A stretch of DNA of 64,000 bases from an uncultured Isoptericola sp. (GTDB lineage: Bacteria > Actinomycetota > Actinomycetes > Actinomycetales > Cellulomonadaceae). The stretch spans positions 186,001-250,000 of the forward strand of contig CANMFP010000002.1 of assembly GCA_947497265.1 (NCBI GenBank), given 5' to 3'. Shown piece after piece: positions 59,541-61,184 of this stretch. The notes under the pieces were generated by a model that saw nothing but the letters and a program-made list of their open reading frames with translations, searched no databases and was not told the DNA's origin. Both the position numbers and the translations under genes were made by a program. Numbering within the stretch: position 1 is the first letter of the stretch; the number at the start of each line of letters is the position of its first letter.

Positions 59541-61184
59541 TCAGAAGAGCACCTGCTCGACACCCGCGCCGGCCACCTCGAGCCCGCTGCCGTCGCGAGG
59601 CATCCCCGCGACGGCCCCTCGTGCGGGTGCCTCGACCATCGACCCGGCGGGATAGTCGCCCTCGTCGTGCGGACGGAGCTCGCCGTGCCGGCCGGTGGCA
59701 CCGGACCCTGATCGGTGCCCGGACCGGCCGAACCCGCGCTCGTCGAGCAGGGGACGGACCCGGTCCCACAGCCACTCGCGGTAGCCCTTCAGTGCGTACG
59801 TCCCCCGCGTGAAGACCCGTTCGTACCCGGCCACCAGGTGCGGGTGGTCCTGGGCGAGCCACTCGAGGTACCACTCGCGCGTCCCCGGCTTGAGGTGCAG
59901 CGGGACGACCGTGACGCCGGTCGCGCCGGCGTCGGCCACGGCGTCCAGCAGGCGTCGCAGATGGTCGGTGGAGTCGGTGAGCCAGGGCAGGACGGGCGCC
60001 ACCATGACGCCGCACGGCAGTCCGGCGTCGCGCACCGCGCGGACGAGGTCGAGCCGGGCCCGGGGCGTCGGCGTCCCCGGTTCGACCGCCTGCTGGAGCT
60101 CTTCGTCGACGAACGCCAGCGAGACGCCGAGGCCCACCTCGACCCGCTCGGCCGCGTCGGCGATCAGAGACAGGTCACGGCGCAGGAGCGTGCCCTTGGT
60201 GAGGATCGAGAACGGCGTGCCCGAGTCCGCGAGCGCCGTGATGATGCCCGGCATCAACCGGTAGCGCCCCTCGGCACGTTGGTACGGGTCGGTGTTGGTC
60301 CCGAGCGCGACCGCCTCACGCCGCCACGAGGGTCTGGCCAGCTCGGCGCGCAGCACGTCGTCGACGTTCGTCTTGACCACGACCTCGGAGTCGAATTCCT
60401 TGCCGGCGTCCAGGTCGAGGTACTCGTGCGTCGGGCGGGCGAAGCAGTTGTGGCTGATCACACCGTTGGCGACGAAGTCACCGGTGCCGGTCGTGATGTC
60501 GACCATCTCCTGCTCGAACCCGAGATTCTCGACGCTGACCACCCGCAGGCCGGCCCACGACGTGACGGTGTCGCCGACGACCTCCAGCGGCCGCGCGGAC
60601 GCAGGCGTCGCGGCACCCCGAGGACGGCGGCCGCCGCATCCCATCAGGTGGTCGCCCTGCGTCAGGGACGGTCGCTGCGCCCCACCGGGCCGCTGCCTCG
60701 CGACGTGCTTCCACCCGTCACCGCGCGCAAGGAACCGGTGTTCTCCACTGGCGACCAGCTCGGTCCCGTCGGCAAGGACGACCCGGTACGCCGTCCTCAC
60801 GGTCGGCCATCTCGCGAGCACCTGCGTCGTGACGTAGCGCCTGCCCTCGCCGTCCGGCTCGGTGCCCACGATCTGGTCGCCGACCATGACGTCACGGATC
60901 GGCTTCTGCCGGCCGTCGGCCAGGAGGACCAGCGTCTCCGGATCCAGACAGTAGCGGCACGCATGACTGCATCCCCGGTACGGGTTGACCGTCCAGCCGA
61001 ACGGCATGCGGGACGCCGCCGGAACCTTGGACAGCGCGCTCTTGGCCAGCACCTCGTGGAATGTGATCCCGGCGAACTCCGGCGTACGCACGCTGCGCAC
61101 CAGGCCCGCACGGGCCAGGTCGGTCCGGTCCAGCCCGGGCAGGGCGCCGTCGTCGGCGGTGACCGATTGCGCGTCCCATCTCAC
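59541..61184 (-). CDS. Rv2578c-family radical SAM protein interrupted by an intein
   Basis: The 547-residue precursor contains a radical SAM protein of the SplB-like Rv2578c family and a 168-residue mini-intein. The cluster motif reads GCSHACRY (Cys72 and Cys76) and, after the intein, CFARPTHEYLD (Cys247). When the intein is removed these join to CxxxCxxC, and the mature protein has 379 residues. ALGTNTDPYQRAEGRYRLM and SILTKGTLLRRDL follow in the barrel. The enzyme's reaction is unknown. The GTG start overlaps the upstream gene as GTGA. Confidence 0.93.
   Translation of the reverse strand: MRWDAQSVTADDGALPGLDRTDLARAGLVRSVRTPEFAGITFHEVLAKSALSKVPAASRMPFGWTVNPYRGCSHACRYCLDPETLVLLADGRQKPIRDVMVGDQIVGTEPDGEGRRYVTTQVLARWPTVRTAYRVVLADGTELVASGEHRFLARGDGWKHVARQRPGGAQRPSLTQGDHLMGCGGRRPRGAATPASARPLEVVGDTVTSWAGLRVVSVENLGFEQEMVDITTGTGDFVANGVISHNCFARPTHEYLDLDAGKEFDSEVVVKTNVDDVLRAELARPSWRREAVALGTNTDPYQRAEGRYRLMPGIITALADSGTPFSILTKGTLLRRDLSLIADAAERVEVGLGVSLAFVDEELQQAVEPGTPTPRARLDLVRAVRDAGLPCGVMVAPVLPWLTDSTDHLRRLLDAVADAGATGVTVVPLHLKPGTREWYLEWLAQDHPHLVAGYERVFTRGTYALKGYREWLWDRVRPLLDERGFGRSGHRSGSGATGRHGELRPHDEGDYPAGSMVEAPARGAVAGMPRDGSGLEVAGAGVEQVLF
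60447..60950 (-). other. Mini-intein without homing endonuclease (residues 79-246 of the radical SAM protein)
   Basis: The intein starts with Cys79 in CLDPETLVLLADGRQ (block A) and ends GVISHN before Cys247 (block G, HN plus C). Block B is ELVASGEHRFLARG with the conserved His, and block F is LRVVSVENLGFEQEMVDI. At 168 residues it has no room for a homing endonuclease; the middle (about 160-200) is a short G, R and P-rich linker. All splice residues (Cys1, block B His, penultimate His, final Asn, Cys+1) are present, so splicing should be active. Confidence 0.93.

Follow-up and report, generated by a model that had tools for sequence, protein, structure and literature searches.

An intein that sits exactly on a predicted cluster-binding cysteine of a radical SAM enzyme raises the question of whether its splicing is conditional and, if so, whether such control is adaptive or simply follows from the insertion site. 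We analysed such a case in a window of 64,000 nucleotides from an uncultured Isoptericola sp. (assembly GCA_947497265.1, contig CANMFP010000002.1, positions 186,001-250,000 of the forward strand). Positions below are those within this window, whose own copy of the gene is locus L001. The value of this natural system lies in the presence of empty, long and mini forms in one genus, together with a splicing nucleophile at an iron-sulfur ligand position.

The precursor gene and its intein

The precursor scored 801.4 bits against NF038136 (NCBIfam "intein-containing Rv2578c family radical SAM protein"; cut-off 700) and 528.5 bits against NF038135, the model of the intein-free Rv2578c family (317 positions; cut-off 430). 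The latter alignment spreads over residues 1-485, which implies an insert of about 168 residues, and the two results together exclude a chance match. A preliminary description of this DNA had named the host as an Rv2578c-family radical SAM protein and had held that intein-containing members of the family were known; the scores bear out the former and the very name of NF038136 the latter. An intein in an Rv2578c radical SAM protein is, thus, a recognised kind that already has a named family. We saw no essential difference from that family; NF038136 has 574 positions, compared with 485 matched residues in our precursor, and presumably derives from longer inteins. On homology only, the encoded enzyme is a putative [4Fe-4S]/SAM-binding radical SAM protein; a likeness to spore photoproduct lyase in Pfam stayed under the cut-off (13.8 vs 27). 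The C-terminal tail of the C-extein is also present in the intein-free L002 of the same genus. The GTG start of the gene shares GTGA (61181-61184, minus strand) with the TGA stop of an upstream 194-aa ORF, an overlap that suggests translational coupling between the two; the upstream protein had no Pfam match at E 0.001. The features of the locus are collected in Table 1.

Table 1. Features of the intein-containing radical SAM locus (positions in the window)
Feature	Position	Strand	Basis
Gene of the 547-aa precursor (Rv2578c-family radical SAM protein plus intein), starting with GTG	59541-61184	minus	ORF and profile matches
N-extein, residues 1-78, carrying C72 (60969-60971) and C76 (60957-60959)	60951-61184	minus	read from sequence
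C72-xxx-C76-xx-C79, full CxxxCxxC in the unspliced precursor	60948-60971	minus	read directly
Mini-intein of class 1 spanning residues 79-246 (168 aa), without homing endonuclease	60447-60950	minus	empty homologues, alignments
Block B, residues 146-149 (SGEH), Ser replacing Thr of TxxH	60738-60749	minus	alignment
Block F aspartate, residue 229	60498-60500	minus	alignment
Block G end, His245-Asn246	60447-60452	minus	read from sequence
Cys247, +1 residue, third cluster cysteine after splicing	60444-60446	minus	sequence and homologues
C-extein (residues 247-547) with the main part of the radical SAM domain and a C-terminal tail	59541-60446	minus	sequence, Pfam

The insert has the parts of a class 1 intein, namely Cys1, a block B (T/S)xxH, a block F Asp, and His-Asn before Cys+1. 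Indeed, C1, S68, H71, D151, H167 and N168 (intein numbering) were invariant in all 60 inteins of our alignment A4. In block B, Ser stood in 60/60 of these inteins where the textbook motif has Thr, and Gly was found in L048 (from a separate set of 40). General intein models fell below their cut-offs on the precursor (TIGR01445, 23.9 vs 24.5; Pfam Intein_splicing, 22.4 vs 35.8; Hom_end_hint, 21.4 vs 32.1). The boundaries given in the preliminary description, with HN followed by Cys247, agreed with the sequence and with intein-free homologues: 30 empty loci, which lack residues 79-246, read CxxxCxYCFAR uninterrupted.

A model of the intein alone (mean pLDDT 92.9) is predicted to have the fold of a Hint domain. 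The Foldseek matches listed were intein or Hint domains, with the BIL2 domain 6y75 first, followed by DnaB, gp41-1 and RecA inteins within the top 20. A profile of the intein gave 27 matches in the PDB, gp41-1 and DnaB first; the whole precursor had no match to PDB sequences at E 0.01. When residues 81-250 of the AlphaFold precursor model were divided into 17 blocks of ten, 12 had an average pLDDT of at least 90. Confidence fell under 50 at residues 72-75 and 249-264, so that the extein loops flanking the motif are not reliably placed and no statement on cysteine geometry is possible.

According to the preliminary description, the cluster motif is broken until splicing (Cys72, Cys76, then 168 foreign residues), and splicing creates CxxxCxxC. 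Neither point survived. The precursor reads C72-SHA-C76-RY-C79; its third cysteine is the intein nucleophile, C79, which fills the third position, and the linear motif is present both before and after splicing, with C79 swapped for C247. The intein-free homologues do support the description in assigning the third ligand position to the +1 residue, Cys247. Judged from these residues, the precursor would not be short of a ligand, the splicing nucleophile itself being the predicted third one, and splicing would exchange this cysteine for C247 while bringing the rest of the enzyme adjacent. Strict dependence of enzyme maturation on splicing is likely, because 168 residues lie between the motif and the remainder of the domain. 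The Pfam Radical_SAM match covers only residues 280-407 of the precursor; in L002 it covers residues 66-239, motif included (54.7 bits; cut-off 29.5).

Class 1 inteins splice by an N-S shift, acyl transfer to the +1 residue, Asn cyclisation and an S-N shift. In the precursor, C79 would attack the Tyr78-Cys79 bond, the acyl group would be transferred to C247, Asn246 would cyclise, and Tyr78 would finally be joined to Cys247. The predicted product is an enzyme of 379 residues that carries C72/C76/C247. We infer that splicing does take place and that, until then, the enzyme has no activity.

Spread and probable decay of the insertion

To place the insertion among its relatives, we took 73 whole-genome loci, L001 included; 43 had an intein and 30 were empty. 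One insertion site is common to all 43 inteins, and each of these loci has Cys at -7, -3 and 1 and reads HN|C at the downstream junction. In a class-wide search NF038135 matched 177 of 394 genomes (158 over the cut-off) and 6 of 14 control genomes (none over the cut-off). Among the 150 class-wide matches listed, 31 span at least 1371 nt, and every one of these holds an intein at the site. The nearest named records, among the matches listed, were Isoptericola species.

Within the genus, 18 genomes comprised 5 empty loci, 5 with inteins of 348-350 aa and 8 with inteins of 155-209 aa. The extein of the empty L002 is 94% identical to that of the window's copy, and these two form a clade of three with L036 (SH-aLRT 99); an empty locus nested with two mini-inteins requires loss, or a separate history, at this point. 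On an extein tree of 69 loci, in which one family supplies 23 of the 28 empty rows, the intein or empty state needs at least 6 changes, as against a mean of 22.0 after shuffling (0/500 shuffles were as low). This clustering indicates that inheritance outweighs recent transfer in the sample: among these 69 loci the presence of the intein is mostly inherited, and although gains or losses did occur, their number is small. Distances between exteins and between intein cores were partly correlated (Spearman 0.50 over 78 non-independent pairs) in the 13 genomes of the genus that have the intein, a result compatible with either transfer or fast evolution.

The long forms scanned carry an endonuclease that the window's intein lacks. 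LAGLIDADG_3 exceeded its cut-off of 22.5 in both long forms scanned (L038, 37.0 bits; L044, 33.6 bits), and a Pfam scan found no LAGLIDADG match in the 168-aa intein under study or in the 209-aa intein of L037. The element of the window is, therefore, a mini-intein and not a full-length homing intein. The L037 intein (positions 1932-2558 of its locus, plus strand) retains only the flanks of the endonuclease; it is possibly a half-deleted homing form, a candidate intermediate between homing and mini-intein. Forms that resemble the empty, homing, partly deleted and mini stages all occur in this one genus, and this pattern is consistent with the decay of a homing element into mini-inteins.

The allele is widespread: at least 583 stretches were confirmed when 84,980 species genomes were scanned, and the window's intein is one more member. 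Our named loci are the best 80 of these at least 583 stretches. All 80 have host Cys at -7 and -3, intein Cys 1 and then HN|C, and L113 has Phe, not Tyr, at -1. The titles of four of the best 80 point outside Actinomycetota: L122, L109 and L152, which are metagenome bins (Betaproteobacteria, Omnitrophota and Trueperaceae, respectively), and L125, titled as an unverified "Bacillus" record. The first three hold a homologous intein at the same cysteine of a PA0069-like radical SAM protein, beyond the Rv2578c family. L122 (2240-3886, plus strand) scored 432 bits against the PA0069-family model NF033668 (cut-off 360) and 450 against NF038136, under the cut-off of 700; L109 and L152, both cut short, scored 113 and 108 for PA0069 vs 93 and 61 for Rv2578c. 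NF038136, a model that includes the intein, gave all three their highest scores, yet under its cut-off. The trimmed actinobacterial loci L117, L119, L133 and L140 also stayed under the cut-offs of NF038135 and NF038136, and the Rv2578c label of the remaining named loci comes from the extein residues on either side of the insertion. In a tree of weak resolution (6 of 57 branches starred), the inteins of L109, L122 and L152 branch within the rest, so that the intein has probably passed from one sister enzyme family to another at this one cysteine.

We also looked for vectors. Viral contigs gave 31 pattern matches, none of which was confirmed by tblastn; phage records gave 7 matches with identities of 31-34%, six to terminases of Gordonia phages and one to a P-loop protein of a Vibrio phage, and plasmid records 3 at 31% identity (all from Streptomyces plasmids), none of them the allele. 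The source genome itself holds two further weak intein matches, both in one ORF (L155; contig C19, 301-3237, minus strand). By eye this ORF is dnaB-like and has two intein-like inserts, the second longer and the first seemingly starting with Ala. Class 3 inteins begin with Ala, and L155 resembles the DnaB of M. smegmatis, which has two inteins.

Homing endonucleases favour codons that are unable to change, and the best explanation for the choice of site is that the element homed into a part of the gene with no freedom to drift. Anatomy, conserved catalytic residues, empty sites and endonuclease-bearing relatives support one reading, to which we give a probability of roughly 0.85: that the insert, a class 1 mini-intein of canonical type, is the shortened descendant of a LAGLIDADG homing intein and is fixed at the codon for the third [4Fe-4S] cysteine. 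Against this reading count the sub-threshold scores of the general intein models, the empty L002 in a clade with mini-inteins, and the strong clustering of intein presence on the extein tree.

Is splicing conditional?

MoaA is a radical SAM enzyme, and the insertion site of its intein in Pyrococcus abyssi is presumably the third CxxxCxxC cysteine, as we judge from the -3 spacing. Redox control of splicing at our locus, which the preliminary description put forward, is plausible by analogy with that intein. Two reviews report for P. abyssi (work of Callahan et al. 2011) that a disulfide between Cys-3 and Cys1 of the MoaA intein blocks splicing; according to the earlier review, its importance in native hosts had yet to be demonstrated. 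The redox idea has, then, already been proposed for another radical SAM enzyme. In CxxxCxxC the second and third cysteines stand exactly as far apart as positions -3 and 1, and the precursor therefore shares a pair of the MoaA type.

Such a pair might have evolved as a switch, in which oxidation would form a C76-C79 disulfide, block the first step and so confine production of an oxygen-sensitive enzyme to a reducing cell. Cys-3 and Cys1 do occur together in all 80 of the best named loci and in all 43 intein-bearing whole-genome loci, the reviews report the identical pair for MoaA, and the modelled intein matches 3nzm, the structure of a DnaE intein that has a redox trap in its N-extein (Foldseek E 2.8e-5, rank 42; profile E 6e-4). 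However, Cys-3 belongs to the enzyme. All 30 empty relatives have it, and because they do, the conserved cysteines at -7, -3 and +1 are uninformative on regulation. The intein is absent from 5 of the 18 genus genomes, one of them the 94% identical L002; by eye, -1 is Tyr and -2 variable with or without an intein; and C1 is the sole intein cysteine conserved in at least 90% of the 60 A4 inteins. An internal cysteine is absent from the intein in 51 of the 79 named loci parsed. We found no evolutionary signal for redox control in the empty relatives or in the 18 genus genomes. The alignments thus point to a C76/C79 pair owed to the insertion site, with no evidence of evolved control, and we consider an evolved switch unlikely.

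Slightly less probable still is that the cluster cages the intein, such that iron-sulfur machinery, or a single Fe or Zn, loads C72/C76/C79 before splicing and ties up the nucleophile. Splicing would then wait for an empty, reduced site, after which C247 would become the third ligand, and Fe-S supply, not a disulfide alone, would gate maturation. The full set of three cysteines in the precursor would allow this; in the open-licence literature we found nothing on an intein of an Rv2578c-family radical SAM protein or on cluster assembly via an intein nucleophile. On the reading that we prefer, splicing should pause whenever C76 and C79 form a disulfide or C72/C76/C79 bind a metal or cluster, as a by-product of the site; our data gave no evidence that the host exploits such a pause.

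Intein and extein are both constrained. In 12 pairs with the intein in both members, dN/dS was 0.11-0.49 for the intein and 0.06-0.17 for the extein, and the intein value was the higher in 11 of the 12. The figure of 0.49 belongs to the window's intein paired with that of L036 and, from the alignment, is perhaps due to a free linker. It is very improbable that the insert is an inactive relic, past splicing and in a dead gene: the higher dN/dS of the intein and the Ser for Thr in block B could be taken for decay, but every catalytic position is retained, the Ser is common to the 60 A4 inteins (the Gly of L048 belongs to the other set), and extein values this low with an intein on both sides indicate an enzyme still under selection while the intein is present.

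Comparison with known systems

Among solved structures, the DnaB and gp41-1 inteins (4o1r, 1mi8, 6frg, 6qaz) are among the nearest by both profile and fold; they sit, however, in other hosts and at other sites, and their identity to the window's intein is 21-24%. A close parallel in another enzyme is the PA0069-family radical SAM protein of L122, which has a homologous intein at the same cysteine, although its host belongs to a sister family. In the M. smegmatis DnaBi1 intein, zinc binds the initiating cysteine, and splicing is inhibited by H2O2 and by zinc, according to two reports (PMC6195587, PMC7360933). There, too, the catalytic cysteine is a target of redox and metal, which offers a precedent for metal control, but DnaBi1 is of class 3, with a disulfide partner within the intein. 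The P. abyssi MoaA intein differs in being archaeal, in residing in a different enzyme family and in having a reported disulfide, whereas that of our precursor is a candidate one; the two are alike in combining Cys1 with a cysteine at -3, C76 and C79 in our precursor.
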